A stretch of DNA of 64,000 bases from Halalkalicoccus sp. CG83 (GTDB taxonomy: Archaea; Halobacteriota; Halobacteria; Halobacteriales; Halalkalicoccaceae): the NCBI RefSeq assembly GCF_037081715.1, contig NZ_JAZDDH010000001.1, positions 2,480,001-2,544,000 on the forward strand. The letters run 5' to 3'. Below are positions 10,298 to 28,555 of the stretch, one piece after another. The translations under genes were made by a program, and so were the position numbers. The notes below the pieces were generated by a model that was not told the DNA's origin, made no database searches, and saw nothing but the letters and a program-made list of their open reading frames with translations. The first letter of the stretch is position 1, and every line of letters begins with the position of its first letter.

Positions 10298-12556
10298 TCA
10301 TAGCTCAATCGTCTGCTCGCTCTCGCCCGTCGGTACCTCGACGGTCTCCTCCCGTTCACCGTCAGTGAGTCGAAGCGTTGCCTCCTGATCGCTGTCGAGA
10401 TGGAGCGTGATCGGATCCTCGGACGCTAATCCGGCCTCCGTCACCCAGATCGTGGACCGGGTTACGTCGGAGAGGTCGATCTCAAGGGCGTTCTCCGTCG
10501 GCGCAGAATCCCGCGGCAGATCCCACTCGGTGCCGCGCTTCTGATGAGGCGCAGGCTCAGTACCCGTACGTTCGTAATCATTCGTTTCAGGGGGTGTCTC
10601 GCCGATCGCGAGCGATCGAACGCTGATCGTCCCATCGTCGACGTTCCCTTCGACTCCGATGTCCGAGATCCAGAACGCGCCATCGTGAACGAGATCGAAC
10701 TGCTCGGCATCGAAGCGGGGAATCCGACGGTAGGTTACTTCCGATGGACGCCGAGGTACCTCCGAGTCGTTGAGGAACTCTCGGCCGGGGCCCCACTCGT
10801 CATCGATCGCGAACGTGAAATGATCGTAACCGGGGAAGACATCGAGTTCGTGGCGATAGCCCAGCTCCCGAAGTCGTTCTTGGGTGGCCGTATATGCAGG
10901 GGCCGGAACGAGCTGGTCGTTGGCGCCGTTCCACATCAAGACCGGAAGCGACCGGAACGTATCGAGAAGCCGGTCGGAGCTCCCTTCGTAGGTATCGTTT
11001 GCCGCCGCAGCGACGATGAACGTTCGCGCGAAGAGATCGGGATAGAACGCTCCGAGACGGAACGTGCCGAACCCGCCCATCGAGTATCCGCCGAGGGTCA
11101 CGTTATCGAAGTCGATCTCGTAGCACGCCGCGAGGTCGTTCCACGCTTCGAAAACGTCGAGCTCGGCCTCTTGGCGGTACCAACCCGCGGGACCACGCCC
11201 ACCCGGGGTCAGTACGATTGCGTTCCGATCCTCGCCGAGCTGTTGATAGAGGTTCGGACTCAGGACGGCATACTCGTTGTAGGTCGAGCCCAGAGAATGC
11301 ATGTGGAGGTGAAGCCGAGCGGGGTCGTCCGTTTCGAGGTTCTCGGGTACGTAGACCCCATAGGGCTGGACTCGACCGAGCAGGACGTCCTCCTCAGTAT
11401 CGACTCCCGATCCCAACTCGTAGCGTGAGGAATACAGCCGGGTCATGAAGCCCGATTCGGGGACGTGCCGTTCGGTCTCTCGTCGCCGGAGCCTTTCGAA
11501 GTCGATGTCAGCATGGAACTCGCTGATGTCGCGCTTATCGAGGGCAGAGGCCTGGGCGTGATCACGGTAATGGCCGTAGCCCAGGCCACGTGAGCCGGTT
11601 TCAGTCCCGTCTTCGAGCGTCTCGCCGGTTTCGAGATCGACGGTGATCTCACCGGTATCGCGGTCGATGTTCGGTGCGCCGACGGGCTCGTCGAAGCGAA
11701 AGCCGACGTTGAAGATCGGCGGTGGGTTCTCACCGTGAGCACCGCCCGGATTCGACCCGTCAGGCAGTTCTTGGACCGCTCTGAACCGTTTTTCGTCGGC
11801 GTCGAACAGCCCGACGGCCAGGTAGTGACGCCAGACTTCCTCGCCGGGAGCACGCGGGACGACGACCTCGATCTGATTTCGATCGGGATCAACGGTCGAC
11901 TCGACCGGTTCACCGTTGAATTCCGCGCCAGTTCCCCAGGTAACGAGAACGTCGTCCAAGCCAAGCGGTCCGAGCTCGCCGATACCATAGCCCCAGTCGT
12001 CAGTACCCCCGTCCCCGCTACGATCGATACCGATGGCGATTCCCGTCGCTTCCGGGTCGACCATCGTGTTGAGCGTGATTCGGTAGCGGACCTGGTTACC
12101 CTCTACCGTGGCACGGAACTCGAGGAGATCGGCAGCGTTGTGATGAAACGTCTCATCATCAGTTGGATAGACGACGTCGCCCGTCATCCCACCGTTCTCG
12201 CCGTAGGCGGTGTCGTCGTTAGGCTGAGGATGGGGCGGGACGACCGCATCGGTCGTGTTAGCGCCATAGTCGTCGTGGACGTAATCCTGATAGAGATACT
12301 CGCCGTCGATGTAGGCGTCGGTACCACAGACCAAGAGCGGATCCGCATCCCAGTGTTCGCCGTTCTCGAACTGAGGTGCGGTGGTTAGCTCGTCGTAAAG
12401 TACGTCGGGCCCCGGACGCGGTGAACCTCCCTCGAGACCCCTACTCGTGTCCGCCGTCCCCGATACAGAGCCCGTAAACCCGCCGGTCACCGTAACGCCG
12501 ATAGTCCCCAGTACCCTCCGCCGATTCCAATTTACCGCTGGTCGTCTATCATCCAT
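10298..12556 (-). CDS. Tat-exported alpha/beta hydrolase with N-terminal sensor-like domain
   Basis: This is a large secreted protein of 752 residues with a Tat signal (NWNRRRVLGTIGVTVTGG). Residues 80-300 resemble the beta-sandwich found C-terminal in glucodextranase-type proteins (GIAIGIDRSGDGGTDDWGYG). The hydrolase domain follows, with a HLHMHSLG oxyanion region, nucleophile GYSMGGFG (Ser near residue 500), acid NGANDQLVP and histidine in FPGYDHFTF, i.e. a complete Ser-Asp-His triad of the prolyl-oligopeptidase/esterase clan. A Thr/Glu-rich C-terminal beta domain completes it. The open frame extends to a TTG at 12562; the ATG at 12556 is preferred. It may be an esterase or peptidase; the substrate is unknown. 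Confidence 0.8.
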   Translation of the reverse strand: MDDRRPAVNWNRRRVLGTIGVTVTGGFTGSVSGTADTSRGLEGGSPRPGPDVLYDELTTAPQFENGEHWDADPLLVCGTDAYIDGEYLYQDYVHDDYGANTTDAVVPPHPQPNDDTAYGENGGMTGDVVYPTDDETFHHNAADLLEFRATVEGNQVRYRITLNTMVDPEATGIAIGIDRSGDGGTDDWGYGIGELGPLGLDDVLVTWGTGAEFNGEPVESTVDPDRNQIEVVVPRAPGEEVWRHYLAVGLFDADEKRFRAVQELPDGSNPGGAHGENPPPIFNVGFRFDEPVGAPNIDRDTGEITVDLETGETLEDGTETGSRGLGYGHYRDHAQASALDKRDISEFHADIDFERLRRRETERHVPESGFMTRLYSSRYELGSGVDTEEDVLLGRVQPYGVYVPENLETDDPARLHLHMHSLGSTYNEYAVLSPNLYQQLGEDRNAIVLTPGGRGPAGWYRQEAELDVFEAWNDLAACYEIDFDNVTLGGYSMGGFGTFRLGAFYPDLFARTFIVAAAANDTYEGSSDRLLDTFRSLPVLMWNGANDQLVPAPAYTATQERLRELGYRHELDVFPGYDHFTFAIDDEWGPGREFLNDSEVPRRPSEVTYRRIPRFDAEQFDLVHDGAFWISDIGVEGNVDDGTISVRSLAIGETPPETNDYERTGTEPAPHQKRGTEWDLPRDSAPTENALEIDLSDVTRSTIWVTEAGLASEDPITLHLDSDQEATLRLTDGEREETVEVPTGESEQTIEL

Positions 12557-14495: not shown

Positions 14496-14819
14496 ATGGC
14501 TCACGAGACATCACCACCCTCCCGAGAGGAGATCGAAGAGCGGCTTCAACAGGTCGGACAGTACTCCCGTGTCATTCGCGCAGGATTGGGAGTCATTCTG
14601 AGTGCGTTTCTGTTGGCCGTTGGTGGCGTCCTTCCCGCCAATCTCGGTAGTCCCTCACAGGCGATCGGGGCGATACTCATGCCACTCACGTTCGTTGGAC
14701 TGGGCCTCATCCTCTATGGAATCGGGATGCATCTTCACCTGATGCATTTGAATCTCGTCCGCCAGCTCCAGCCGGAACCGAAGGACGACTCCCCATCGAA
14801 GACCGAGCCAGATGACTGA
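14496..14819 (+). CDS. Small two-helix membrane protein, unknown
   Basis: This 107-residue protein has a charged N-terminus (SREEIEERLQQVGQYS), two hydrophobic helices at about residues 29-50 and 58-80, and an acidic C-terminal tail rich in Glu, Asp, Lys and Ser. It is likely an inner membrane protein with both ends in the cytoplasm. I do not recognise the family. It stands alone, with a TATA-like element about 30 bases upstream of the ATG. Confidence 0.6.
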   Translation: MAHETSPPSREEIEERLQQVGQYSRVIRAGLGVILSAFLLAVGGVLPANLGSPSQAIGAILMPLTFVGLGLILYGIGMHLHLMHLNLVRQLQPEPKDDSPSKTEPDD

Positions 14820-15248
14820 AGGGATCGGGGAGTCCCTCGATCCCTGATAGAGACGAGTGTTGGGCGGGCTCGGAGGACGGGCTCGGCGATACCCTGTTTC
14901 AGACTCAGCGTCATCATGAAGAATGTCAACGATTATTCCCTGCTCTCCAGGGATTTGATGTCAGGACCGGATTGGTCCGGAATATCAATTCGTACTCGAT
15001 CGCCCTCTTTGAAATGCATTTGCAAAGGCTTGTTCAGGATGCCTCTATCTCTGGATAACAGCTAGTGTCTTTTAGTTCACTGTCTTCTAGAGAGGATACA
15101 GAGAGGTCCACAGTCTATTCTACGGTTTTTCGCTCGAGAACTGATTTACCACTATTTCGGAGATCACTCAGTGTTCGATCTCCAAACTCGGGATGGGCCT
15201 CTCGTTGCTCCGGAGAAAGTTTTTATCATCTACTAAAATCTGTAACAT
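14820..15248. other. Intergenic stretch with promoter at its end
   Basis: No gene is supported. Base composition is lower in GC than the flanks. TTTTTATC (about 15220-15227) stands 22-28 bases before the ATG at 15249, as expected for a leaderless haloarchaeal promoter. Confidence 0.45.
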
Positions 15249-15527
15249 ATGCCGAGCACTATCCACATCGCCCTGTATCTCGGGCTTTCAATCGGGATCC
15301 TCGTTGGCTTAGCCGTTCTGATGGACATTCTTCTCGCCGAGCCCCACAACCAGAATCACCAGATACCGGGCAGTCCGTCCGGGCAGAACGGGGGTGATTC
15401 CACCTCGTCACAGCTGTTGGAGAACGGGGGAGTAAACGTGACCTGTTCGAAGTGCGGGACTTGCAACGACTCTCTCTATCGGTTCTGTCGAACGTGTATC
15501 GAACCCTTACCACCATTCAGGAGATAA
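15249..15527 (+). CDS. Small membrane-anchored zinc-ribbon protein
   Basis: This 92-residue protein has one N-terminal transmembrane helix (about residues 5-28), a Gln/Asn/Gly/Ser-rich linker and a C-terminal zinc ribbon with four cysteines: CSKCGTC at about 66-72 and CRTC at about 80-83. Similar membrane-tethered zinc ribbons are common and uncharacterised in haloarchaea. The start is supported by a TATA-like element 25 bases upstream. The function is unknown. Confidence 0.6.
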   Translation: MPSTIHIALYLGLSIGILVGLAVLMDILLAEPHNQNHQIPGSPSGQNGGDSTSSQLLENGGVNVTCSKCGTCNDSLYRFCRTCIEPLPPFRR

Positions 15528-16017
15528 GAGAGACCGTTCCTTGGGGTCCTCGTAAACGACCACGGTTCGGGCGACCCGCGTCGTTTGTAGTTCCCCCAGC
15601 GTGGGAGAGAACTCCCTGTTCCGCGATGGAACGGGATGAGGTTGGGCGGTTTACATCCATGCTATCAGAATTGGTAGCGCGGCATCCCGACTCAGACAGG
15701 TTCACCTTCCGAACACTCGGTGGGGTTTTGCGAGTCCGGCAATTCTCGTCGCCAGCATCAGCACCAGACAGGTCTGACGAGAGATGTTCGATTACTGCTA
15801 TTCAAGCATCGCAAATATGGTAATAATATGATATTATTATAGCCGAGTCGCGGCAGTACGGGTATGAGAACGATTTACGAAACCGTCTTTGTATCCGGAA
15901 AATCGTAGGACAGCGAGGAGTCAACAGGCAACACGTATGTATCCCCTATACGCATCCTGACAATATTTACGAGTGGACCGATGCCGTCATGTGGTTTTGA
16001 TGCAACGAGAAAGCAAG
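15528..16017. other. Intergenic stretch next to tRNA-Arg
   Basis: Only weak open frames are present. An AT-rich palindrome (TAATAATAT-G-ATATTATTA, 15821-15839) lies about 180 bases beyond the 3' end of the tRNA gene. Nothing else is identifiable. Confidence 0.35.
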
Positions 16018-16092
16018 TGGGCGCTGCAGGATTTGAACCCGCGGCAACTTGGTCCGAAGCCAAGCACTCTGTCCAGACTGAGCTAAGCGCCC
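16018..16092 (-). tRNA. tRNA-Arg (TCG anticodon)
   Basis: A complete 75-base cloverleaf is read leftward: acceptor GGGCGCT paired with AGCGCCC, discriminator A, anticodon arm CTTGG-CTTCGGA-CCAAG giving anticodon TCG (arginine, CGN codons), and T-loop TTCAAAT. No intron is visible. The 5' half (42 bp including the acceptor start) is repeated exactly at 21965-22006, so this gene is the attachment site of the integrated element to its right; its 5' half and upstream promoter now come from the element end. Confidence 0.93.
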
Positions 16093-16093
16093 T
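16052..16093. repeat. Left attachment repeat (42 bp) of integrated element
   Basis: These 42 bases, covering the anticodon loop to the 5' end of tRNA-Arg, recur without a mismatch at 21965-22006 in the same orientation. The pair brackets about 5.9 kb of AT-rich DNA carrying integrase genes, as expected for attL and attR of a tRNA-targeting element. Confidence 0.85.
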
Positions 16094-16117
16094 ACGCGAA
16101 CCGCTTCGGGCTAGCCC

Positions 16118-16136
16118 CGTTTAACTCCCGCGATTT
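16118..16136 (-). promoter_or_regulatory. Promoter of tRNA-Arg supplied by the element
   Basis: About 28 bases upstream of the tRNA 5' end (rightward on this strand) lies TTAACTCCCGCGATTT. Its near copy, TTAAGTCCCGCGATTC, lies at the same distance (27 bases) from the orphan 5' half at 22006. Read leftward, this is a GC-rich BRE-like block followed by a TTAA-centred TATA-like element. Confidence 0.5.
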
Positions 16137-16404
16137 ACTCCTTCGCGTGATCCCATCTCGACATGATCAATGCTACCAGTGCCAGTACAATAAAAGAGGC
16201 AGATGAGAAGCTCTTCGCTATTCGAAGCTCAACTATACTTTGGATCGATAGTAGAGGTCCTATTCGAGCAATTGCTTACAATCACTGTTATATAAAATTC
16301 ACAAGGCCTGGGTCCCACGTTTCGAGAACGTGGGGTTACCTGTTTTCGTGAGCTGTCATTTTCGACTGACATGAGAATCCCAATTCCTACGTTTGAAGCA
16401 CTGA
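16137..16404. other. Element left flank, no gene supported
   Basis: AT-rich DNA between the tRNA promoter and the first integrase remnant. Two short open frames run in opposite directions, but neither resembles a protein I know. Confidence 0.35.
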
Positions 16405-16698
16405 GTCTATGCAAGAACGTGTGCGTACGTGCCACGAGTGTGGCATCAGGAACTTTCATACGGATCTAGCTCGCTCAAAATCGTCCTTGAGAAGGTTTGT
16501 GATATCGCTGGGATCGATACTACAGATCGGGGTCTCACTTGGTACGCGATCAGACACAGCACTGGAACAACTATGTCAGAGGAAGAAGGACTAAAGGCGG
16601 CACAGATGCAACTTCGCCACCGCGATCCCAAGACGACGATGAAGTACGACAACGTCTCAACTGAACGTCGACGAGATGCCCTCGATCGAATGGGCTAA
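16405..16698 (+). pseudogene. Tyrosine recombinase, C-terminal remnant 1
   Basis: About 97 codons encode only the end of a phage-type integrase. They align with the C-terminus of the intact integrase at 20709-21821: SSSLKIVLEKVCDIAGID matches its SLKFVLHKLCEMADIP, WYAIRHSTGTTM matches WYSIRHSVGTYM, and LRHRDPKTTMKYDNV carries the catalytic His/Arg and Tyr. The N-terminal domain and the first catalytic Arg are missing, and a stop codon precedes the remnant. It points rightward, opposite to the intact gene, so it comes from a different, older integration. Confidence 0.75.
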
Positions 16699-16926
16699 GG
16701 GATACCCGTTCTTTGCCGCCTTCGCGGCCGCATATTCTTCGATTGGCAGTACCTACTCTACAGAGTGAAATAATTCACACGGCATAAACATCGAAATACT
16801 CGGTCACAGGCCAATGAGAACGAAGTCGCCCCATTCAGTAAGATCCGGATTGCCACAGTCATATGAAACGCTTGAAATATTTATTTCCATAACTTGATAC
16901 TCTACCTTTACAAGCCGAATACGTGA

Positions 16927-17001
16927 TTCTTTCTGATCATCAAGGCAAATGACACTGTTTCCGCCAAGAGGCGACGAGATGCCTTAGACAATATAGGCTA
17001 G
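16927..17001 (+). pseudogene. Tyrosine recombinase, C-terminal remnant 2
   Basis: Just 25 codons ending in KRRRDALDNIG-stop match the last residues of remnant 1 (ERRRDALDRMG) and of the intact integrase (EDRRKALNRMG). The segment before it (IIKANDTVS) corresponds to TMKYDNVS but has lost the catalytic tyrosine. A stop codon lies directly upstream. It is a relic of a further integrase in the same orientation as remnant 1. Confidence 0.55.
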
Positions 17002-17029
17002 CACGAGACTATCTTCACGTTACTAACGG

Positions 17030-17995
17030 TTAGACATATGATTTCTCCATACTTTCTCTGATTTCTCCCTCGGTAATAGAAACTTTTCCGGTTCTATATT
17101 TATTACCCATCAAATCCTCAGTATTAGACAGTTTTTCTGTATCTCTTACTTTTCCTTGCTGTATTATATCAATGTGTGTCTCATCTTGCTCATCTTCATA
17201 CACTAATGAAAGAGCATAAACACAGTTGTTGATATCCATTCTTGACAACGCGGGTACCCAGAATGGATTGTAAACCGGGGCAAGAAGAGTGGCATTAAGC
17301 CAATTATCCTCGTCCTTCTTTTCCACGAAATTTATGCTAAGCAATTCATCATCAAAGTAGCGGCTAGCAAGACGTTCTGCCCCTCCTAACGCCTCAAAAT
17401 AATTTATGATTTTGAAGGCCAAGGTTGATATTGTGGTTTCGTCCTCAAGACGTTCAAGAACACACATCTGTGGTTTGACTATGTAATTCCCTTGTTCACC
17501 TGGTTCAAGAATCTCACTAGTACTTTCATACGCAGACCTATGTTCCGCATTTTCGATCGTAGTTTCTACAGGTATCAGACTACGTTCTCTCCCCTCATTG
17601 CGACGATACTCTTCTATTTTTGTTCCATCCATTAACTTGAGATCGATCCTAAGACGAAAATTTTTCCCTATCCCTTTTCCTTTATTTTTGATTAGAATGT
17701 TAATTTCGTTCCCCTCGACGTGTGGGATTCGAAGTTGAAGCTGTGGTTGATATGTGAGTTTCAATAGTTCTCGTTGGGATTCTGAAATACTAGTCTGTTT
17801 TCTGGTAACGGCGTAGAGAAGATAAGTGAAGGCAACTAACAAACCTGAAAAGATATTAGTGGTTAAGTCATCAGTAAATATTGTTTGTTGGCTAACGTAC
17901 TGGAGAAACACTGTAACTCCAATTACTAAGCCTATTAGTACAAATAAGAGAGTAGCTGAGCTAACAATAGATCGCATTTTCGCTCCCCAACTCAT
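17030..17995 (-). CDS. Element cargo: two-helix membrane protein, unknown
   Basis: This 321-residue protein has two transmembrane helices at its N-terminus (about residues 10-33 and 46-64) and a large soluble C-terminal region predicted to face the cytoplasm, with an Ig-like feel (LQLRIPHVEGNEINILIKNKGKG, then a Glu/Lys-rich beta stretch). No catalytic motif is evident. Its codons are AT-rich, unlike the chromosome. It is third of three leftward cargo genes, 113 bases after the DUF6414-like gene. CTATATTAATCG (about 18018-18030) upstream is a likely TATA element of its own. I do not recognise the family. Confidence 0.6.
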   Translation of the reverse strand: MSWGAKMRSIVSSATLLFVLIGLVIGVTVFLQYVSQQTIFTDDLTTNIFSGLLVAFTYLLYAVTRKQTSISESQRELLKLTYQPQLQLRIPHVEGNEINILIKNKGKGIGKNFRLRIDLKLMDGTKIEEYRRNEGRERSLIPVETTIENAEHRSAYESTSEILEPGEQGNYIVKPQMCVLERLEDETTISTLAFKIINYFEALGGAERLASRYFDDELLSINFVEKKDEDNWLNATLLAPVYNPFWVPALSRMDINNCVYALSLVYEDEQDETHIDIIQQGKVRDTEKLSNTEDLMGNKYRTGKVSITEGEIRESMEKSYV

Positions 17996-18108
17996 CTATT
18001 TATGTGTTAGAATAGCGATTAATATAGAAATTACTATTCGAAAAACTCAGACTGTCTGAAAGAGAAGTTGATCACACCAATTTTCGTCTCGTTTCTTCCA
18101 ACTATCTC

Positions 18109-19071
18109 TTACCAGTAGACGGCGAGAGGATCAATTACAGTTGCCGGTCCGTCTACTGTTACATGCTCATCTAACATTTCGACCTTGTTTTCTTCCGCTA
18201 TATTACGGATAACTTTCATAAACCGACTAATACCTATATCCTCATTAGCAAAAGACTCTAATACCCTAGTTGTATCGATAGGATCCCATTCTTCAGATTC
18301 AGAGATCGTATCTTCGACTCTACCAAATATTGTATACTTTTTTGGCTTAGAAAATGCTCGTTTGACTGGAACTCTTAGCTGATTCCGATCTAAAACAGCT
18401 CCGTAAGAATGGCCTCTAAACTTACCTTGACTATCTACCCTGATAGGTACCCTTTCTCCGATGAGTCCTTTCGAGATATTCACAAAAGTATCCGTTAAAT
18501 CAGATCGGGCTTCCTGTACCTCGGTAGGGTCTTTCACTACGTTGTCTCCCTCTTGCTGCCGCTTAATTTCATCTAGTTCTGAACTCAATCCATGATCTTC
18601 AAGTACACTTCTGAAATTCTCCATTTGTTTCATTATAGCTATGGTTGAGTGCTGAAGAGTAAGATTAGAGTCTTGAGCAATTTCGAATCGAAAGAGCGAA
18701 AGCGGTGACACAATCCCTTCTATTGCCACCACATCTCCGTAATTTACCTCGTCTCCTTGTTCAGGTAATTTGATTTCGTAGCTACCTTTTATTTGCCTAA
18801 TTAATTCTTGGAATCTATATGGTGCGGTTATATCTACATTACGTTCTGTTTCTTCTAAATCCACATTTCTAACTCCTCCTGAACCTCCAAAACTGCCAAA
18901 AGGAGATGGAACAAGAGCTGCGAACCGACTAGTAGTTTCTTTTTCGTCTGAACTAGCTGTTACATGCTCTGTTTCTAGTCCAACACCAAGAGAAGAAAGA
19001 TGGCTGTTTATACTTTCATCATTCAGATAAATGAATTCTCGAAGCTCTTGTTCCGGAAATTCGTTTGCCAT
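18109..19071 (-). CDS. Element cargo: DUF6414-like protein
   Basis: This 320-residue protein starts with LREFIYLNDESINSHLSSLG, close to the signature I associate with DUF6414 (EFIYLD-x-SVNSLLSSL). A Gly/Ser/Phe-rich stretch (SPFGSFGGSGG) and an Asp/Glu-rich middle follow, with a possible beta-barrel-like part near residues 95-135 (GDVVAIEGIVSPLSLFRFE). Family members are found in mobile and defence-like contexts, but no function is established. Codon use is AT-rich. A TATA element at 19091-19102 is placed for a leaderless transcript, so the gene may be expressed independently of its neighbours. Confidence 0.6.
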   Translation of the reverse strand: MANEFPEQELREFIYLNDESINSHLSSLGVGLETEHVTASSDEKETTSRFAALVPSPFGSFGGSGGVRNVDLEETERNVDITAPYRFQELIRQIKGSYEIKLPEQGDEVNYGDVVAIEGIVSPLSLFRFEIAQDSNLTLQHSTIAIMKQMENFRSVLEDHGLSSELDEIKRQQEGDNVVKDPTEVQEARSDLTDTFVNISKGLIGERVPIRVDSQGKFRGHSYGAVLDRNQLRVPVKRAFSKPKKYTIFGRVEDTISESEEWDPIDTTRVLESFANEDIGISRFMKVIRNIAEENKVEMLDEHVTVDGPATVIDPLAVYW

Positions 19072-19090
19072 ATAAGTGAATAGTTCTTCT

Positions 19091-19102
19091 CATATAAAAT
19101 AT
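19091..19102 (-). promoter_or_regulatory. TATA element for the DUF6414-like gene
   Basis: ATATTTTATATG, read leftward, lies 20-31 bases before the ATG at 19071, the spacing for a leaderless archaeal transcript. It lies in the 56-base gap after the preceding cargo gene. Confidence 0.5.
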
Positions 19103-19127
19103 TCATCGTCTCTATCATAGTATTGCG

Positions 19128-20348
19128 CTACAGATCTTCTGAAGTTAGTTTAAAGGTTTCCAACTTCCAGCCTAAATTCTCGTAGATGGATCTCGCATCG
19201 ACAGTATTGGTATATGTATTTGGGATATAACAAACATTTGAATTTTTCATGCGAAGCATTACGCCAGCAATTTGATCCAAGTCATCCTCCTGAAACACTC
19301 CCTCATCACCTGGTCGAATTGCTGGGAAACTTCGGTATTTGCCAGTACTCGAATCCTCACTTTTCTCAATAAAAGCTATCTCACGCTTGTCATTAGGATT
19401 AGGAATAGCACTAATCTCAATTAGGTAGTCTTCCCATTCATTTGAAATAGACTGAACCCTTGGTGACAGATCTACGTTCTCTCGAATTGCGAATCCATAC
19501 GGTTCTCCAATCAAAATATCACGGACTTCATCCGCGGAACTAATAGAAGTGTGCTCACAATTTATGAACACTACCAATGGCCTACCATTTCGAGGTTGAT
19601 CGGCCTTCGTTCGTAACCGTTCGGCGATCTTGCCTTCGTCATCAGGTTTTATTCCTCGCCTACGATCCCAAGTTCCTATCCAGGCAAACGATCCCTGTTC
19701 TTTTTCTTCAAATTCTACCCGAAGTGCGTTGGTTTCTATTGTTTCGGGGTCATCGGGATTCAAGTCTTGCTCAATTAGATTAATGAAATCGTCAACTGCC
19801 TCTTCATTTTCGCTCCACCTTTCATGGGTTGTCGCTTGAATATCGAACTCCGACTTCAATGATAATCTCCCAATGTAAGGCAGGTTATCCATCACGTCTT
19901 CTAGCTTTCTTCGGATGCGGTATTCTTCATCTGCCTCTTGTAACAATGTTGCATCAACGTCGAAATCCTCACATGCAAAGTCAGGCATCCCTTGCTTGTC
20001 AGGGAGATCAAGCACTTGTGGATCCTCACACAACCACTGTATTAGCGCCTGATAGCACCACAACTCTGTCACGAATGCGTTGAACTTACCGCGCGAGTAA
20101 AGGTTATTATCATAGGTCTTCACGAGTTTTTCTGCCGGCGATTGCTCTACCAGTTTTGACCACATTTCTAAAGCGGGTTCACGATCTCGGTCAATACAAA
20201 TTTTCAAAGGGTGATCGTCGTCACATCTATTTATCAGATCATCAGGAAGAAGAGCGCTCAGAGTCGGATATTTGCATTCGAATTCCATTTGATCCATAGG
20301 TTTGAATGATTCGGAGTGCCGCTCAATGATAAAATAGGATACTATCAC
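19128..20348 (-). CDS. Element cargo: possible nuclease-like protein, unknown
   Basis: This protein of up to 406 residues is of unknown family. An N-terminal helical part contains KFNAFVTELWCYQALIQWL (Glu95), followed by KQGMPDFACEDFDVDAT (Asp123; Asp130/Asp132). This E...PD...D-x-D spacing resembles, but does not complete, a PD-(D/E)XK active site because no clear E/QxK is visible. The second half has a Rossmann-like RPLVVFINCEH strand and ends with VFQEDDLDQIAGVMLR. The 20348 start is GTG; the ATG at 20297 is an alternative and better placed relative to GGTTTTATCC near 20370. It is first of the three leftward AT-rich cargo genes. Confidence 0.55.
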   Translation of the reverse strand: MIVSYFIIERHSESFKPMDQMEFECKYPTLSALLPDDLINRCDDDHPLKICIDRDREPALEMWSKLVEQSPAEKLVKTYDNNLYSRGKFNAFVTELWCYQALIQWLCEDPQVLDLPDKQGMPDFACEDFDVDATLLQEADEEYRIRRKLEDVMDNLPYIGRLSLKSEFDIQATTHERWSENEEAVDDFINLIEQDLNPDDPETIETNALRVEFEEKEQGSFAWIGTWDRRRGIKPDDEGKIAERLRTKADQPRNGRPLVVFINCEHTSISSADEVRDILIGEPYGFAIRENVDLSPRVQSISNEWEDYLIEISAIPNPNDKREIAFIEKSEDSSTGKYRSFPAIRPGDEGVFQEDDLDQIAGVMLRMKNSNVCYIPNTYTNTVDARSIYENLGWKLETFKLTSEDL

Positions 20349-20498
20349 TATAGATTCTTCTATGGATAAAACCGTGCAATGAGGTGTTTGTACCCGGATA
20401 TAGGCAAATCACGACGAATGCTAGAGGTTCGTAGATGACAGCGAAATGATTTCATTTTCTTGATAGTATCTGAGTGGTGGTTGTCAGAGTTGGTAAGG

Positions 20499-20640
20499 TT
20501 AGTCGACTGTCGCGATCAATGCTTGGACATCGAGGCCAGCGGCTCCATGTGATTTTTCGTAGTCCCATTCGTGCTCTTCGTTGAACTCGCTCCGACCATA
20601 CCAAAGACGAAAAGTACGAGAGGAACGATTTGAACCCGCG
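20499..20640 (-). pseudogene. Decayed coding fragment fused to a tRNA-Arg fragment
   Basis: Read leftward, one frame without a start codon gives SNRSSRTFRLWYGRSEF and continues with an acidic, protein-like tail (EEHEWDYEKSHGAAG...) ending in TAA at 20499. Its upstream part reads straight into the 28-bp tRNA-Arg copy at 20627-20654, so a gene end became joined to an attachment site. I do not recognise the protein. The next gene is the intact integrase. Confidence 0.35.
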
Positions 20641-20654
20641 GCAACTTGGTCCGA
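20627..20654. repeat. Third tRNA-Arg fragment (28 bp, 3' half)
   Basis: These 28 bases are identical to 16030-16057, i.e. the T-arm, variable region and 3' side of the anticodon arm of tRNA-Arg. It stops at the same anticodon-loop bases where the 42-bp repeats begin (shared GTCCGA). It therefore looks like half of an attachment site left by another recombination at the same tRNA. Confidence 0.7.
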
Positions 20655-20708
20655 CCAGCACCGACCTACATGTCGTTACATGTGATTATACTGGATCTGC
20701 GTAGGCAA

Positions 20709-21821
20709 TCATCCCATTCTATTGAGGGCCTTACGTCGATCTTCGACAGGGGTCTGGTCGTATTTCATCGTCGTATTCACGCTCTTATGACGGAGTTGGG
20801 ACTTGGCAGCGGCGAGGCCTTCTTCGCGCGTCATGTACGTCCCGACAGAGTGCCGGATAGAATACCACGTCATCTGACGGTTTTCAATTGGAATATCGGC
20901 CATCTCACAGAGCTTATGAAGCACGAATTTGAGTGAGGTGCTCTGATATGGATTACCATGGCGCGTTAACCAGAGCGTGTCAGTGTCGTCGTATTTTTCG
21001 ATTAGAGCTCGTTCTTGAAGCCAATTTTCGAGGAACTGAGCGGTTTGCTCACGAATACTGACGTGCCAGTGCTCGGTATTCTTTGCCGAATCTTCGGCTG
21101 GAATACGAAGGAGTGCGTTTTCTGGGTCGATCCAACTGACAGACGCCCGTTCGACCTCGATCGGTCTGAGCCCTGTATCGAGCGCTGTCCAAATGAGACT
21201 CGTGATCTTGTGGCTATTTGCTTCGTTGAACTCCTCCGGTCCTATCTCGTGCATCGGTTTGCCGAGCCGTCTCGCCAGATGTTGTTTCCATCTCGTTCGT
21301 TCATCAGGTGTAACCGCGTTATAGTGAGGGACGCTCCCGTATTCGAGTGAGACGTCTCGAAGACGCTGTCGCTCTTTCCGCGTTAGGTAGTCACGCGGAG
21401 TCGTTTGCGTCTCAGTCCGCGCGTATGTGATCGGTGGATTCCAGGCTCCCTTTTCACCGAATTGCCACTCGCGCCATCGGAACAACATCTTCACTGATTT
21501 GACGAGGTTCGTTTTGTGGGTCGCAGAATGGTCGGTAAATGCGAGTTGTCTGGTGTATTCGTTCGCGTGTTCGTGGGTGACGTGAGTAGTGTACTGGTCG
21601 TCTTCGTCCCAGACCCAGTTGTAGAATGCGTCCGTGTGGTAGCATCGTGCTCTTACAGTCGTCGGTTGGTAGCCGATTGCTCGGTCGGGATCGCGCCCGA
21701 GTTTGAGCATCCATTTGACGAGTGATGTGCGATGAGTTTTGTAATCAGTTAGCTGTCTGTTGTTCAGCTTTTCTCGCGTTCGTTGCGGAACGATCGGAAA
21801 GTCCTTAGCTTCGGTTGACAT
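20709..21821 (-). CDS. Tyrosine recombinase/integrase (intact)
   Basis: This 370-residue phage-type integrase is very probably the enzyme that inserted the element into tRNA-Arg. The N-terminal half is a SAM-like core-binding domain (residues about 20-130). The catalytic domain shows Arg in DTGLRPIEV (box I), WYSIRHSVGTYM (box II Arg, with Tyr where His is usual), LRHKSVNTT (His/Arg) and the nucleophile Tyr in MKYDQ. It ends about 140 bases from the right attachment repeat. It is conserved with the two integrase remnants at the left end. Codon use is closer to the chromosome than that of the cargo genes. Confidence 0.9.
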   Translation of the reverse strand: MSTEAKDFPIVPQRTREKLNNRQLTDYKTHRTSLVKWMLKLGRDPDRAIGYQPTTVRARCYHTDAFYNWVWDEDDQYTTHVTHEHANEYTRQLAFTDHSATHKTNLVKSVKMLFRWREWQFGEKGAWNPPITYARTETQTTPRDYLTRKERQRLRDVSLEYGSVPHYNAVTPDERTRWKQHLARRLGKPMHEIGPEEFNEANSHKITSLIWTALDTGLRPIEVERASVSWIDPENALLRIPAEDSAKNTEHWHVSIREQTAQFLENWLQERALIEKYDDTDTLWLTRHGNPYQSTSLKFVLHKLCEMADIPIENRQMTWYSIRHSVGTYMTREEGLAAAKSQLRHKSVNTTMKYDQTPVEDRRKALNRMG

Positions 21822-21964
21822 TGTCTGGAATCCTTCGCTAGCGTGCGGTTTTCGGTTCGATTGACGTTCGTCGAGCTATGGGAAGAATCGGCGAAGGAGT
21901 TGAGTTCAACAGGAATTCTGGTGAAAAGTGCTGTACGGAACCGACTTCTTCAAACGTGTCAATT

Positions 21965-22006
21965 GTCCGAAGCCAAGCACTCTGTCCAGACTGAGCTAAG
22001 CGCCCT
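21965..22006. repeat. Right attachment repeat (42 bp), orphan tRNA-Arg 5' half
   Basis: Exact copy of 16052-16093. Here it is followed on the right by chromosome-like GC-rich DNA with a preserved tRNA promoter (22033-22048) but lacks the tRNA 3' half on the left. It is thus the original chromosomal 5' half, left behind by integration (attR). Confidence 0.85.
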
Positions 22007-22032
22007 GGATTCGGGGTTCGGGGGTCTCGTTC

Positions 22033-22048
22033 TTAAGTCCCGCGATTC
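22033..22048 (-). promoter_or_regulatory. Orphan tRNA-Arg promoter
   Basis: TTAAGTCCCGCGATTC matches the block upstream of the intact tRNA-Arg (16121-16136) at 14 of 16 positions and at the same spacing from the gene. It could still drive transcription of the truncated 5' half into the element. Confidence 0.5.
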
Positions 22049-22063
22049 GTCGACACGAGGGGA

Positions 22064-22384
22064 TCAGAAATGCGCGAGGCCGGCGGCGACCATCAGGACC
22101 AGCCCGGTTCCCATTCCGGCGTAGTTGATCGCACCGTTGGGCGTCACCAGGTCGCTGTAGAGGATCACGGGGATCGCGAGGACGATCAGCGCGGCCATCG
22201 CCGTCTGGGCTCGTGAGACGCCGGCGGCGTCGGCATCGGCGTTCTCGTCGAACTCCGAGCGGCTCGCTCGCAGACCGTCCACTAGCTCACAGCAGTCGTC
22301 GTCCGACCGAACGGTTCGGTCCACGATCTCCCTCCAGGCACGTTCGTCCGGTCCGGCCCGATCCATGGGACCGTCGTCGCTCAT
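22064..22384 (-). CDS. Small membrane protein, unknown
   Basis: This 106-residue protein has an acidic soluble N-terminus with a Cys pair (SDDDCCELVDGLRAS) and two C-terminal transmembrane helices (about residues 61-80 and 88-105). It is divergent from the next gene and is the first chromosomal gene after the element. I do not recognise the family; such two-helix proteins are common in haloarchaea. Confidence 0.55.
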   Translation of the reverse strand: MSDDGPMDRAGPDERAWREIVDRTVRSDDDCCELVDGLRASRSEFDENADADAAGVSRAQTAMAALIVLAIPVILYSDLVTPNGAINYAGMGTGLVLMVAAGLAHF

Positions 22385-22470
22385 CGTCGGATAGTCCCGG
22401 CCCGGCTTCTTAAACGGTTCGTCAGACGCACGTCAGCCGACCGATCCACCCTTGATAGGGCCGGCATGGG

Positions 22471-22479
22471 ATATAAAGG
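22471..22479 (+). promoter_or_regulatory. TATA element
   Basis: ATATAAAGG stands about 25-30 bases before the ATG at 22502. It decides the start of the following gene: an in-frame ATG at 22466 precedes the TATA element and cannot be in the transcript. Confidence 0.55.
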
Positions 22480-22501
22480 TGGGAGCGAAGAACACGGAGA
22501 C

Positions 22502-22861
22502 ATGGTACTGAACGGTGCAGTGATGGGATCGGTCGTCGCGTTCCTGATCGCGCTCCTGGTCGGCGGACTGGCGATCTACGCCAGCGCCAGCCTAGTCATG
22601 GACATCCAGAACTACAGCCACGCGGTGATCACGGCCCTTCTCGGGGCGATCGCCTGGGGACTCACCGCGTGGATCCCGCTGTTCGGCCCGGTGATCGCGC
22701 TGATCGTCTGGATCGGCGTCATCAACTGGCGCTACCCCGGCGGCTGGGTCGACGCGACCATCATCGGCGTCGTCGCCTGGCTCGCCGCGCTGGTGCTGTT
22801 GTTCGTCCTGAACTCGGTGCTGGGCCTCGGCGTCGGCGCGTTCGGCGTTCCGGGTGCCTAG
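22502..22861 (+). CDS. Integral membrane protein with four helices, unknown
   Basis: This 119-residue, almost wholly hydrophobic protein has helices at about residues 8-28, 38-52, 54-72 and 82-105, with Gly/Ala-rich packing and an NWRYPGGWVD loop. The start was chosen from the TATA element 25-30 bases upstream. It converges on the NADH dehydrogenase-like gene, and their stop codons overlap at 22859-22860. The function is unknown. Confidence 0.6.
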   Translation: MVLNGAVMGSVVAFLIALLVGGLAIYASASLVMDIQNYSHAVITALLGAIAWGLTAWIPLFGPVIALIVWIGVINWRYPGGWVDATIIGVVAWLAALVLLFVLNSVLGLGVGAFGVPGA

Positions 22862-24000
22862 TCCCGATCGACCAGCCCCGCGATCCCCAGTTCCTCGTCG
22901 ACGAGATCGACCGCGTTTCGTACCGCGCCCACCGAGGAGAGATAGCCGGCGCCGACGCTCGCCTTCAGCGCGAGGGCGGCCCGGCCCCGTAACACGGACG
23001 GTCCGACCTGCGCGACCGCGCCGTCACCGACGCTGACGAGCCAGCCCGGCGAGTCGAAGCCGAATCGTTCGGGTCGGGGACCGAACCCGCCCGCGTCCCA
23101 GCTTTCGACGATCCCGACGAGGCTGTCGGCGACGACGCGGGCCTCGCGGATCGCGGCCTGCGCGCTCGCGGGGACCGCCTCCCCGTCGCGGTCGACCGCC
23201 TTTGCCGCGTCCCCGACGACGAACGTCCTCGCGTCGAGTCGCAGGTCGCTTCTGACCGGGGGTCTCCGTTCGCAGAGAGCGCCCGGTCCGCGGATCCCGC
23301 CGGTCCAGACGAACGCGTCGTAGGGGATCGGCCCGTCGTCGGTCTCGATCACGTCGGCCGTCGTCCGCCGAACGGCCGCCCTCGTTCGAACGTCGACGCC
23401 CCGCTCGGTGAGCTCCTGTGTCACCGCCGTCCTGAAGTTCTCGGGGAAGTTCGGCGCGACGCTGTCGAGCCGCTCGAGCAGAGTGACCTCGAGCGGAGCG
23501 TCCTCCTCGCGGGCGAGTGCGGCGAGCTCGCCGGCGACCTGCACCCCCGAGAGGCCGGCGCCGCCGACGACCACCCGCCCTCCCGAGTCGAGCAGCGGGA
23601 GAACGCGCTTGCGGATCTCGGTGGCGTGCTCGAGACGTTTGAGCGGGATCGAGTGTTCCTCGACGCCGGGCAGTCCGTAGTAGGCGGTCTCCGCGCCCAG
23701 ACAGATCGCGGCGTAGTCGTACCTGATCTCGCCGTCCGCACACCGGACGACCCGCTCGTCGGCATCGATCGCCTCGATTCGGGTCTCGCGAACGGTCGCG
23801 CGTTCGAACAGCGAGTCGAGCGGCACGGCGATCACGTCCGCGAGCCCGGGCCGCCGGATCACCCGATGGAGCTCGTGCTGGATGAGGTGGTAGGGTCGCT
23901 CGTCGACGACGACGAGCTCGACGTCCTCCGGCAGGCGGCGTTCGAGCGAGCGCGCCAGCGTTACCCCCGCGTAGCCCGCCCCACAGACGACGATGCGCAT
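22858..24000 (-). CDS. FAD-dependent NADH:quinone oxidoreductase-like protein (NDH-2 family)
   Basis: This 380-residue two-dinucleotide-fold flavoprotein begins with the FAD loop MRIVVCGAGYAGVTLAR, has a second GxGxxG in VVVGGAGLSGVQVAGEL (NADH site, about residue 145), FVWTGGIRG and the late FAD motif FVVGDAAKA. The pattern fits type II NADH dehydrogenases and related quinone reductases, which feed electrons into the quinone pool without pumping ions. The longer open frame upstream overlaps non-family sequence; the ATG at 24000 starts directly at the nucleotide-binding strand. No C-terminal membrane helix is obvious. Confidence 0.82.
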   Translation of the reverse strand: MRIVVCGAGYAGVTLARSLERRLPEDVELVVVDERPYHLIQHELHRVIRRPGLADVIAVPLDSLFERATVRETRIEAIDADERVVRCADGEIRYDYAAICLGAETAYYGLPGVEEHSIPLKRLEHATEIRKRVLPLLDSGGRVVVGGAGLSGVQVAGELAALAREEDAPLEVTLLERLDSVAPNFPENFRTAVTQELTERGVDVRTRAAVRRTTADVIETDDGPIPYDAFVWTGGIRGPGALCERRPPVRSDLRLDARTFVVGDAAKAVDRDGEAVPASAQAAIREARVVADSLVGIVESWDAGGFGPRPERFGFDSPGWLVSVGDGAVAQVGPSVLRGRAALALKASVGAGYLSSVGAVRNAVDLVDEELGIAGLVDRD

Positions 24001-24067
24001 CGCTTCCGCTAGGGACGCACCCGATAAAGGACCACCGTTCGGATCGGGCAGACGGCAACGGCGGCGA

Positions 24068-25033
24068 TCAGAACAGCGGGTCGTCGACGATTCGGGCGGG
24101 GCCGCCGACCTCCCAGACGTGGGTGTCGACGCCGCACCCGGAGACGGCACGCTCGACCCGGTCGACGTGTTCCTCGATGGTGTTGACGTAGACGCTCGCC
24201 CCCGTGTCCGTCGAGTAGTAGACGGGAACGCCGTCGTCGCGGAGCTCCTGTACCGCGTTGAAGATCTCGATCGTCTCGGGCTGCCAGTAGACCCACCCCG
24301 CGGGGCCGGTCATGGTCGTCGCCGCGAGCGAGAGCGAGTCGTGTTCGGCCAGCTCGAAGGTGCGGTCGAAGTCGCCCGAACGGAGCGCGTCGCGCAGTTC
24401 GGCGATCTGGCCGTGCATGTGGGCCATCCGCGCCCCGAACATGTGGCTGTCGGCGGCCTCCTCGTGGGCCTGTTCGGTCTCCTTGTACGAGGGGACGAGC
24501 CCGCCGACGATCCGCAGGTCGTCCTCGAGGGGCGTCTCGATCCGCTCGGAGCGACAGTCGTGATCGTTCAGTCCCGTGTGGAGATGGCTGAACGCGCCGG
24601 TGACCGCGCGCGCCGCGGACGAGGAGCCCCGGCGGGCGACCGTCGAGATCTCGGGTCGCGAGAGCTCGAGTCCCGCGGCCTCACAGAGCGCCATCGCCGC
24701 GGCGGCGAAACCCGATGAGGAGGAGCCGAAGCCGACGTTCGAACGAAAGGAGTTCTCGCTCTCGAGGCGCACCCGCTCGTCGAACTCCGCGAGCTCGCGA
24801 ACCCGATCGACGACCGCCTCGACCCGTTCGGCGCCCCGACCGGAGAGCTCCTCGCCGTCGACGACGTAGACGTCCGCCTCGCGGTCGGACTCGAACTCGG
24901 CGGTCGTCCGCGTGTGACTGGGGGCGGTGCAGACGCTGATGCTGTCGTGGTACGGCAGCCGGAGCTCGGGATCGCGCATCCCGTGGTACTTCGCGAGCCC
25001 CTGGATGGGGTGGGCGATCGCGGTGGCCTTCAT
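24068..25033 (-). CDS. Phosphomevalonate decarboxylase (GHMP family)
   Basis: This 321-residue mevalonate-diphosphate-decarboxylase homologue has KYHGMRDPELRLPYHDSISV near the N-terminus, the GHMP loop NVGFGSSSSGFAAAAMAL (about residues 105-122) and RGSSSAARAVTG. In haloarchaea this enzyme acts on 5-phosphomevalonate in the alternative mevalonate pathway, giving isopentenyl phosphate; that is family knowledge, not seen here. The start at 25033 (MKATAIAHP) is the conserved N-terminus. It is divergent from endonuclease III. Isoprenoid supply for archaeal lipids links it with the prenyl synthase at 36767. Confidence 0.87.
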   Translation of the reverse strand: MKATAIAHPIQGLAKYHGMRDPELRLPYHDSISVCTAPSHTRTTAEFESDREADVYVVDGEELSGRGAERVEAVVDRVRELAEFDERVRLESENSFRSNVGFGSSSSGFAAAAMALCEAAGLELSRPEISTVARRGSSSAARAVTGAFSHLHTGLNDHDCRSERIETPLEDDLRIVGGLVPSYKETEQAHEEAADSHMFGARMAHMHGQIAELRDALRSGDFDRTFELAEHDSLSLAATTMTGPAGWVYWQPETIEIFNAVQELRDDGVPVYYSTDTGASVYVNTIEEHVDRVERAVSGCGVDTHVWEVGGPARIVDDPLF

Positions 25034-25127
25034 GTCGGTGAACGCGGGGGACGGACGGTTAAACGTCCCGGAATCGGCGGCCCGGTCGGATCGAACCGCT
25101 GAAAGGGATCCGCTCCCCACCCCCGTC

Positions 25128-25811
25128 ATGGGTAGCCGACTGGAGTCACGCGAGGCGCAGACCGTCGAGGTGGTCGATCGTCTCTCCGCGGAGTACCCCG
25201 AGGCGACGATCTCGCTTCGGTTCTCCGATCGACTGGAACTGCTGATCGCGGTGATCCTCTCAGCACAGTGTACCGACGAGCGGGTCAACCGGGTCACCGA
25301 AGAGCTCTTCGAGAAGTACGAGGGCGCCGAAGCGTACGCCGAGGCCGACCAGGAGGAGCTCGCGGAGGACCTCAGCTCGATCACCTACTACAACAACAAG
25401 GCGGGCTACATCCGCGAGGCCTGCGAGCTCATCGTCTCCGAGCACGGCGGCGAGGTGCCCGACACGATGGACGAGCTCACCGACCTGCCGGGCGTGGGAC
25501 GAAAGACCGCGAACGTCGTCCTCCAGCACGGCCACGAGGTCGTCGAGGGCGTCGTCGTCGACACCCACGTACAGCGCCTCAGCCGTCGGTTGGGCATCAC
25601 TGAGGAGTCCTCGCCCGAGCGGATCGAGCGCGAGCTGATGGAGCTAGTTCCCAGAGAACGCTGGCAGGAGTTCACCCACCTCTGCATCAGCCACGGTCGG
25701 GCGACGTGTACGGCACGCAATCCCGACTGTGGCGACTGCGTGCTCGAGGACGTCTGTCCCTCCTCGAAGCTCGACGGCGGAGTCGACCTGGCAAGCGGCG
25801 AGGCGTGGTGA
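25128..25811 (+). CDS. nth: Endonuclease III
   Basis: This 227-residue DNA glycosylase/AP lyase removes oxidised pyrimidines. It has the helix-hairpin-helix LPGVGRKTANVVL with the catalytic lysine (Lys126), the catalytic aspartate in VVDTHVQR (Asp145) and the 4Fe-4S cluster ligands C-x6-C-x2-C-x5-C at the C-terminus (CTARNPDCGDCVLEDVC). The ATG at 25128 gives the standard length; the longer frame upstream runs into the divergent gene's coding sequence. It is followed by a small acidic protein gene. Confidence 0.93.
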   Translation: MGSRLESREAQTVEVVDRLSAEYPEATISLRFSDRLELLIAVILSAQCTDERVNRVTEELFEKYEGAEAYAEADQEELAEDLSSITYYNNKAGYIREACELIVSEHGGEVPDTMDELTDLPGVGRKTANVVLQHGHEVVEGVVVDTHVQRLSRRLGITEESSPERIERELMELVPRERWQEFTHLCISHGRATCTARNPDCGDCVLEDVCPSSKLDGGVDLASGEAW

Positions 25812-25865
25812 CCCGGAGGGCGCGTGGAAAACGCCTTTGATCCTGGGCGTTCAACTCGGAACGCT

Positions 25866-26105
25866 ATGACCGAAGGGGACGAACACGGACGCGACGTCGA
25901 ACTGTCCAAGGAGAAGAGCGACCCCGACGCGGAGGAGGACGTCGACGAGGAGGTCGAACGCGAACAGGAGGAGGAGCGACGACGGGCCCAGGAGGAGGAG
26001 GCCGAGGAGAAGCTCGACGACGAGGACGAACAACGGGAGGCCGCCGCCGAGGAGACGGCGAACCCCGACGCCCACCGTGACGAGCGCCCGTTCAACAACC
26101 GCTGA
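25866..26105 (+). CDS. Small, highly charged acidic protein, unknown
   Basis: These 79 residues are dominated by Glu, Asp and Arg, likely one long charged helix or coiled coil (EEVEREQEEERRRAQEEE). There is no domain signature. It lies 55 bases after endonuclease III on the same strand. An upstream in-frame ATG at 25824 exists, but the stretch between has a different composition. Strongly biased composition makes coding status slightly uncertain. Confidence 0.5.
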   Translation: MTEGDEHGRDVELSKEKSDPDAEEDVDEEVEREQEEERRRAQEEEAEEKLDDEDEQREAAAEETANPDAHRDERPFNNR

Positions 26106-26111
26106 TCGCGG

Positions 26112-26591
26112 CTACAGCACGTAGCGAACCACGTACTGGGCGATCCCCAATAGATAGGCGATCAGCCAACACAGGACGTAGCCGGCGACGCCGACGCGAA
26201 GCCGGAAGCGCCACGCGGACATGTTCTCGTGGAGATCGTCGATCGCGACCTCCTGGCCGGGATCGCCGTAGAGGTCGTGTTCGTACTTCGCCTGGAAGAT
26301 CCGAACGATCCCGGTCAGCGCGAAGACCAGGAAGGCGTACGCCTGGAGCCCGAAGACGGCGTGCATGGCGGCGAACCCCGTGAGCTGATCGAGCAGCCGG
26401 GGCGCCATCCATCCCAGAACGGGGCCGGTCGTCAGCGCCAGCCCGACGAGGATAAAGGAGAGGTGGCGGACCAGCACGGACCACGTGACCGGTTCGTTCT
26501 CGATGATGATCCACGCGCCGTAGAGGTAGAAGGGAAAGCTCGCCGTCACGGCCAGGGCGGCGAGCGTCGCCCAGACGACCGGTTCGACCAT
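26112..26591 (-). CDS. Four-helix membrane protein next to the respiratory cluster
   Basis: This 159-residue integral membrane protein has about four helices (residues about 5-27, 37-60, 72-95, 130-152). Histidines occur at helix ends (VRHLSF, AMHAVFG), as in haem-binding DUF420- or cytochrome-like proteins, but no motif is decisive. It is divergent from the gene at 26677 that leads into the cytochrome bc cluster, a position conserved for such proteins in haloarchaea as far as I recall. The start at 26591 begins directly with the first helix. Confidence 0.55.
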   Translation of the reverse strand: MVEPVVWATLAALAVTASFPFYLYGAWIIIENEPVTWSVLVRHLSFILVGLALTTGPVLGWMAPRLLDQLTGFAAMHAVFGLQAYAFLVFALTGIVRIFQAKYEHDLYGDPGQEVAIDDLHENMSAWRFRLRVGVAGYVLCWLIAYLLGIAQYVVRYVL

Positions 26592-26676
26592 TGGCCGACG
26601 GTACGCGGCGTGGCGCGTTAAACCACCCGAACTCGCTCCCGGAACACGTATGTCCGTCCCGGCCCAATATCGAACG

Positions 26677-27447
26677 ATGGCTGACGCTCGTTCCTCCGAG
26701 GACGAGTCCCCCGACGACGAGCGACGCGTCGAGCGTCCGATCGACGAGGAGTACGACTTCGAGAAGTTCGGCCCGGCGGAGATGGACCGGATGAGCCCCG
26801 AGGAGTGGGAGAGCGCGTTCGATCCCGACTCCTGGATCACCGGCCCCGAACTGCTCGATCGGGTCGAGGCGGACCTCAAGGGGCGGATCGCGAGCCGGGA
26901 CGTGTTCGCGGTGCTCGAACGACTCGAGGAGGACGCTCCGGCGCTTCTGGCTTACTCCGACGAGGGCTATGCGATCGTCTACCCGGACGGGACCGTCGAG
27001 GGCGAGGGGACCGTACTCAGGGACGTCAAGCCGAGCGTCGCGCTCTGTTCGATGGACGACTACGAGGTGGCCGATCCTCCGGCGGACTGGTCGCTTCCCG
27101 ACCCGGAGGAAGTCCCCGAGGGGAGCGGCGACCTGGGCAACAAGATGCTCCAGGTAGTAGCGTTCGGACTGCTCGCGGCGGGGGCGATCATGATCGGCGG
27201 AACCGTCTTCGGCGGGGGCGGCAACGCCGGCGTGGTCGTCCTCCTCCTAGGGGTGATCTTCCTGGTCGCCAGCGTCTTCCTCTTCCTGATCGTCGCCAAC
27301 GCTCGGCTGTCGGATCGCTTCCGTGCGGAGGAGTACAAGAACCGGCTTCGATCGGCGGGGGTGCGCTCGGCCGAGCGACCCGACTTCGTCCCCGTCGAGG
27401 ACGGGAAGATCGTCCCCTTCGAAGAGGGACGCGAGCGGTCCGAATAG
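26677..27447 (+). CDS. Uncharacterised membrane protein of the cytochrome bc locus
   Basis: This 256-residue protein has an acidic N-terminal region containing DFEKFGPAEMDRMSPEEWESAFDP and WITGPELLDRVEADLK, followed by a beta-rich segment (YAIVYPDGTVEGEGTVLRDVKPSVALC) and two transmembrane helices at about residues 163-184 and 189-212. It resembles the haloarchaeal proteins that accompany halocyanin/Rieske/cytochrome b genes; a role in assembling or regulating that complex is inferred from position only. An in-frame ATG at 26650 is an alternative start. Confidence 0.6.
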   Translation: MADARSSEDESPDDERRVERPIDEEYDFEKFGPAEMDRMSPEEWESAFDPDSWITGPELLDRVEADLKGRIASRDVFAVLERLEEDAPALLAYSDEGYAIVYPDGTVEGEGTVLRDVKPSVALCSMDDYEVADPPADWSLPDPEEVPEGSGDLGNKMLQVVAFGLLAAGAIMIGGTVFGGGGNAGVVVLLLGVIFLVASVFLFLIVANARLSDRFRAEEYKNRLRSAGVRSAERPDFVPVEDGKIVPFEEGRERSE

Positions 27448-27529
27448 CCGGACGGGAACGGTCCGCACGGCCCCCGTTCATCGCCCTCATCGGTGGGTTT
27501 ATGCGAGCCCGGTCCTGACCGTCGTGTGT

Positions 27530-28165: not shown

Positions 28166-28166
28166 G

Positions 28167-28553: not shown

Positions 28554-28555
28554 CA

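Follow-up and report, generated by a model that had tools for sequence, protein, structure and literature searches.

Textbook islands in tRNA genes leave the promoter of the gene untouched. In ordinary haloarchaeal islands, such as the tRNA-His island GI 3 of Haloquadratum walsbyi (PMC3119063), the native promoter stays with the gene and it is a 3' fragment that is displaced. The integrase of Halorubrum sodomense tailed virus 2 (HSTV-2) also works in this ordinary 3' mode and has a tRNA 3' piece (tRNA-Leu nt 56-80) before its gene. Use of the 5' half of a tRNA gene has been described as unique in archaea to the pTN3-like integrases and as rarely observed in bacteria (Badel et al. 2021, PMC8371274). 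In that system 41 bp are shared and the tRNA-Leu gene is cut off from its own promoter (Cossu et al. 2017, PMC5495485); transcription of the rebuilt tRNA then starts at the promoter of the integrase (Badel et al. 2021, PMC8371274). The pTN3-like integrases, found in Thermococcales and relatives, are suicidal: their attP lies in the integrase gene, which is split upon integration.

We analysed a 64,000-nucleotide stretch of the Halalkalicoccus sp. CG83 genome (contig NZ_JAZDDH010000001.1, positions 2,480,001 to 2,544,000; hereafter the window), in which a reading of the sequence alone had noticed an integrated element in a tRNA-Arg gene. This observation was confirmed. The element (16052-22006, about 5.9 kb) is very probably an integrative island in tRNA-Arg(TCG) that supplied the gene with its 5' half and promoter. 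The earlier description holds as far as it went; it had missed the promoter swap, a third piece of the tRNA, a relic of another integrase and the recurrence of the arrangement elsewhere. As with the pTN3-like integrases, attB appears to be a tRNA 5' half (their minimal site being tRNA-Leu 2-44) and an intact tRNA is rebuilt, parted from its own promoter. Unlike theirs, the integrase reading frame (20709-21821) is complete in the integrated state, which sets it apart from the suicidal type, and the repeats lie outside it; their tRNA is read from the integrase promoter, whereas the promoter imported here resembles a host tRNA promoter. The HSTV-2 integrase is among its nearest viral relatives (44.0% identity over 99% of the protein), and by such full-length homology, a criterion apart from the formal family of Badel et al., the enzyme is of HSTV-2 type. 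The putative attP likewise lies directly upstream of the integrase gene, but carries the other half of a tRNA. With ordinary haloarchaeal tRNA islands the element shares the integrase family, the tRNA target and a tRNA fragment at the far end, but not their retention of the native promoter. Targeting of the 5' half is thus known from suicidal integrases; the variant described here involves a non-suicidal integrase and several haloarchaeal families. The literature searched, which was limited in extent, contained no description of the 5' mode for haloarchaea.

Anatomy of the tRNA-Arg(TCG) locus

ARAGORN and Rfam both placed one tRNA-Arg at the locus, on the minus strand at 16017/16018-16092, with the anticodon TCG at nt 36. 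A search of the strain's own genome gave this intact tRNA-Arg(TCG) as a single copy, tRNA-Arg(CCG) being the next-best match. Two identical 42-bp repeats, both on the minus strand and 5913 bp apart, mark the ends of the island. The left one (16052-16093) comprises nt 1-41 of the tRNA plus one upstream base, and the right one (21965-22006) holds the displaced native 5' half, nt 1-41. Besides these repeats and a 28-bp piece described below, the only further tRNA match of at least 12 nt in the window is one 12-mer, so a chance origin of the repeats is excluded. An intact tyrosine integrase of 370 aa (20709-21821, minus strand) matched Phage_integrase PF00589 with an E value of 1e-15 and 58.1 bits, compared with the curated cut-off of 27.1, and an alignment showed that its GLRP, IRHS, LRH and KY motifs are conserved. 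The start codon points towards the right repeat and lies 144 bp from it. The exact 42-bp direct repeats in tRNA-Arg, the complete integrase beside the right repeat and the identity of the shared sequence as the 5' half of the tRNA had all been claimed in the sequence-only reading, and all stand. Direct tRNA repeats at both ends, an intact tRNA at one of them and an integrase inside characterize the locus as a site-specific tRNA element.

The DNA between the repeats (16094-21964) has a G+C content of 0.443, compared with 0.667 on the right (22007-32000) and 0.639 in the whole window, and every other 5.9-kb stretch of the window has at least 0.586. The island is therefore richer in A/T than its flanks, as had been proposed, with a left boundary that is not sharp: it is blurred in composition by the low G+C content (0.517) of the roughly 1.3 kb to the left of the tRNA (14750-16016). 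This left-hand DNA has no synteny to that of relatives, except that the first 50 bp of the 3' flank are related (55-64% identity), and the case for the left flank rests on those 50 bp because of the non-synteny. A further island or rearrangement may sit 3' of the tRNA.

The locus was compared with that of five genomes of the same genus (G001, G002, G003, G004 and G006) and one of the same family (G007). The tRNA-Arg(TCG) is whole in 6/6, and the gene block found to the right of 22006 in the window follows immediately on its 5' side in G001, G004 and G006. About 180 bp of extra DNA lie between the two in G002, and in G003 an unrelated 3.5-kb insertion (L033 13260-16773), free of tRNA repeats, separates the tRNA-Arg promoter from the conserved upstream gene. 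Since this block adjoins a whole tRNA in relatives, the island's right flank is the native upstream side of the gene, with nt 1-41 stranded there. The comparison with insertion-free tRNA-Arg loci, suggested earlier as a check on whether the two tRNA pieces belong together, thus found them joined. No exact strain-level empty site for the window was present among the congeners, which are about 72% identical at this DNA.

Provenance of the two tRNA promoters

Each end of the island has a tRNA promoter module on the minus strand. The left one (16093-16141), which precedes the intact tRNA, has a TATA-like TTAA at -32 and appears to be element-borne from its similarity to the promoter of G002. The right one (22007-22055), with TTAA at -31, is the displaced native promoter and is contiguous with a conserved upstream gene (22064-22384). 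A TTAA box at -31/-32 is found in all the promoters, imported or native, except that of G001 (TTAT). The two promoters of the window are 63% identical, and their local match is limited to 15 nt. The left promoter and the G002 tRNA-Arg promoter show 93% identity over 45 nt (local alignment of 92% over 51 columns, score 81 vs a shuffled maximum of 28), while identities of 0.55 to 0.76, and of 0.87 in one case, were obtained for the other promoter pairs of the genus. The right promoter and the adjacent gene align continuously to G004 (171 nt, 72%). On the other side of the intact tRNA, the 3' flank has an identity of 0.60 to G002 and 0.64 to G004. Because the promoter is G002-like and the 3' flank has no such excess similarity, the ancestry breakpoint falls inside the tRNA, and judging from these alignments its position would be that predicted by site-specific recombination within the 42 bp. 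The G002 promoter may itself have been acquired, given the extra DNA between it and the neighbouring upstream gene; it is shared between lineages either way. A search in G002 and G003 for what might be left of a native promoter next to that gene gave no significant result.

These results bear out the proposal that the 5' half of the tRNA had been replaced: the left promoter is foreign compared with the displaced one, and the same arrangement exists in other genomes. The rebuilt tRNA has its 5' half and promoter from the element. The ordinary 3' mode does not describe the locus: nt 1-41 and the native promoter have been displaced together, and a different promoter stands before the rebuilt tRNA.

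We propose that attP consisted of a tRNA 5' half together with about 50 bp of tRNA promoter and was recombined with the chromosomal tRNA by the island's tyrosine integrase. The crossover would have fallen at some point of the 42 bp common to both, the anticodon loop being the probable site. One end would then carry a chimeric intact tRNA (16017-16092), with the native 3' half and 3' flank joined to the imported 5' half and promoter, and at the other end the native 5' half and promoter would be left stranded next to the integrase. The native gene would be re-formed if the island were excised by way of its repeats. Until then, the sole tRNA-Arg(TCG) of the cell would be driven by the island promoter.

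An import or duplication of the whole tRNA, with promoter and 3' flank, would leave the right fragment as a decayed native gene and require no recombination within the tRNA. The left promoter, which is not native-like, and the non-syntenic DNA of low G+C content to the left are what such an event would produce, but the excess of similarity to G002 does not extend past the tRNA, as the two 3' flank identities indicate, and the fragment ends at the anticodon like the att blocks of this integrase family. A tRNA-Ser(TGA) island in G055 moreover has the same layout, and its congener G122 retains the exact empty site, contiguous over both flanks. We consider a whole-tRNA import very unlikely. Equally improbable, in our judgement, is a crossover upstream of the promoter (at about -50), by which the intact tRNA and its promoter would be native and the right 5' half and promoter an element-borne decoy. 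In two further tRNA-Arg islands, G126 and G135, the two promoter copies match completely or almost completely over about 50 bp, beyond which the similarity breaks off abruptly; copy identity thus spans the promoter as well, and the crossover point in those islands cannot be fixed. In the window, however, identical tRNA parts are accompanied by differing promoters, the right promoter is continuous with the native gene and promoter of G004, and the G055/G122 empty site identifies the stranded promoter of that island as the native one. A crossover within the shared 42 bp therefore remains our preferred reading.

Cargo, relics and layers of the island

The island is composite: it contains an older integrase relic, cargo of 40% G+C, an integrase unit of 52% G+C and a stray tRNA 3' piece. 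The cargo genes are all on the minus strand. One (17030-17995) encodes a 321-aa protein with a predicted membrane N-terminus that family searches assigned to no family, and the next (18109-19071) a 320-aa protein of DUF6414 (PF19952, E=7e-31). The third (19128-20348) encodes 406 aa and belongs, by homologue search, to a rare haloarchaeal family that is present in 9/392 genomes of the order and has homologues on plasmids of Halocatena and Halobacterium. The 406-aa protein had no match in Pfam, PADLOC, PHROG or NCBIfam, and its AlphaFold model, of low confidence (mean pLDDT 59), gave no significant PDB match; we accordingly do not claim it as a defence gene. Near the left end, on the strand opposite to the integrase, lies a relic of another integrase of the same family (16429-16698, plus strand), identified by homology, Pfam and PHROGs. 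Only its C-terminal 80 residues remain, with 58% identity to integrase residues 291-370 (E=3.5e-25). A possible second C-terminal relic (SAKRRRDALDNIG-stop; 16963-17004, plus strand) was noticed by eye and is too short for statistics.

A search for tRNA repeats also revealed the third piece of the tRNA, an exact 28-bp match to nt 36-63 (20627-20654, minus strand) located 54 bp past the integrase stop. A single integration does not explain this piece, and its presence beyond the integrase points to a composite history. It shares 6 bp with the right fragment, TCGGAC, which is the anticodon TCG plus GAC. About 40 codons of open frame (LWYGRSEFNEEHEWDYEKSHGAAGLDVQALIATVD-stop; 20503-20626, minus strand) start at the third piece and resemble the C-terminal end of a truncated gene. 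Plasmids yielded no convincing homologue of this frame, and a 55-aa reading through the third tRNA piece had only a weak, chance-level match.

It is possible, though we hold this tentatively, that the 1.3-kb integrase unit (20655-21964) entered a stranded nt 1-63 fragment at the anticodon by way of a 6-bp core, TCGGAC. An older 5'-type island would then have received a later integrase-only insertion, which refines the main model and does not replace it. Such a nested insertion would fit the placement of the integrase between nt 36-63 and nt 1-41, whose overlap at the anticodon is exactly TCGGAC, the uninterrupted nt 1-61 fragment in G135, the G+C content of the integrase unit compared with that of the cargo (0.522 vs 0.403) and the separate integrase relic at the other end of the island. 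In G126, however, the integrase lies directly beside nt 1-34 with no 3' piece, so a second event is unneeded to account for the integrase position, and no integrase-only unit was found, either free or as an independent insertion. The sequence CCAGCAC beside nt 36 could also be a tRNA remnant minus three bases, which would favour a decayed 3'-mode event; we regard the latter as about as likely as the nested insertion.

The 5' mode among related integrases

We inspected the sequence preceding the start codon in 126 distinct relatives of the integrase with at least 42% identity. The ordinary 3' mode, an intact tRNA with its 3' end towards the integrase, was found in 101/126, and the displaced fragments, where seen, begin at about nt 15-32. 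Five integrases are preceded by only a 5' tRNA part: those of the window, G126, G135, L217 and L222. In tRNA-Arg(TCG), the integrase of G126 lies beside a fragment of nt 1-34 and that of G135 beside one of nt 1-61 with its promoter, and the 5' arrangement at this tRNA is thereby found in two other families besides that of the window. The stranded copy in G135 adjoins upstream genes conserved in 17 congener loci. That in G126 adjoins a UbiA-like gene, which also flanks the tRNA in G243; G243 itself was rejected as a 5'-type element, its contig breaking inside one tRNA. The window, G126 and G135 would represent three independent tRNA-Arg islands with a promoter module of about 50 bp, to judge from their alignments. 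The remaining cases are in tRNA-Leu(CAA), in a Halobacteriales MAG (L217, stranded nt 1-40) and in Halosimplex aquaticum (L222). The L217 island (9808-12440), between the stranded nt 1-40 and an intact tRNA-Leu(CAA), measures 2.6 kb and is among the smallest of the set.

A tRNA-Ser(TGA) with its 5' end towards the integrase was found in eight relatives, and in 3/8 of these the far end holds a stranded 5' fragment: nt 1-30 in G055/L099, nt 1-44 in L223 and nt 1-48, with one mismatch, in L229. The promoters imported by the tRNA-Ser and tRNA-Leu islands are unlike those they displaced. L101 and L102 (tRNA-Ser) were set aside as unclear 5' cases, with a far copy that is nearly full length and a seemingly native promoter. 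The imported tRNA-Ser(TGA) promoters of L226, L229, L230, L212 and L223 are alike across genera, and for this reason seem to be the element's rather than the host's; in the same five, tRNA and integrase diverge from one intergenic region. Natrialba hulunbeirensis (L087, L200) has a tRNA-Gly(TCC) followed by two more 3' fragments and then an integrase, which suggests stacked integrations. Two contigs labelled as Clostridia and Halanaerobiaceae MAGs (L247 and L248) carry a haloarchaea-type tRNA-Thr with a related integrase and are probably mis-binned haloarchaeal contigs.

In the integrase tree, a single clade (100/96; 99 in a wider quick tree) unites the tRNA-Arg 5' cases with the tRNA-Ser group; one 3'-mode member is nested inside it (tRNA-Met, Natrinema limicola), and the tRNA-Leu pair falls outside it. 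The minimum number of mode switches on the tree is three, so the 5' mode is old, rare and not limited to one branch. The anatomy of the islands suggests a common reaction for both modes. In the 3'-mode islands and the tRNA-Arg 5'-mode islands alike, the integrase start would face the 3' side of the attP tRNA sequence, and the modes would differ in what attP holds of the tRNA: in the 3' mode about nt 27-76, in the 5' mode nt 1 to 34-62 along with the promoter. The same reaction would then rebuild the tRNA at the integrase end in the former and at the far end in the latter.

We tentatively suggest that a clade of non-suicidal haloarchaeal integrases and, seemingly separately, the tRNA-Leu(CAA) branch have evolved a 5'-swap mode with a portable module of a host-type promoter of about 50 bp and a tRNA 5' half, which may carry tRNA promoters from one species to another and leave an essential single-copy tRNA dependent on an island for its expression. 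Promoter exchange would then be practised by free-standing integrases in several archaeal families, despite the uniqueness claimed for the pTN3-like enzymes in the 2021 review, and would offer a route for the horizontal transfer of tRNA promoters. Sister integrases of 3' and 5' mode within one clade provide material for asking what determines which side of the tRNA is taken along. If the suggestion is true, dependence of an essential tRNA on the island would stabilise the island after loss of excision, and the system would be a direct test of whether islands can take over essential tRNA expression.
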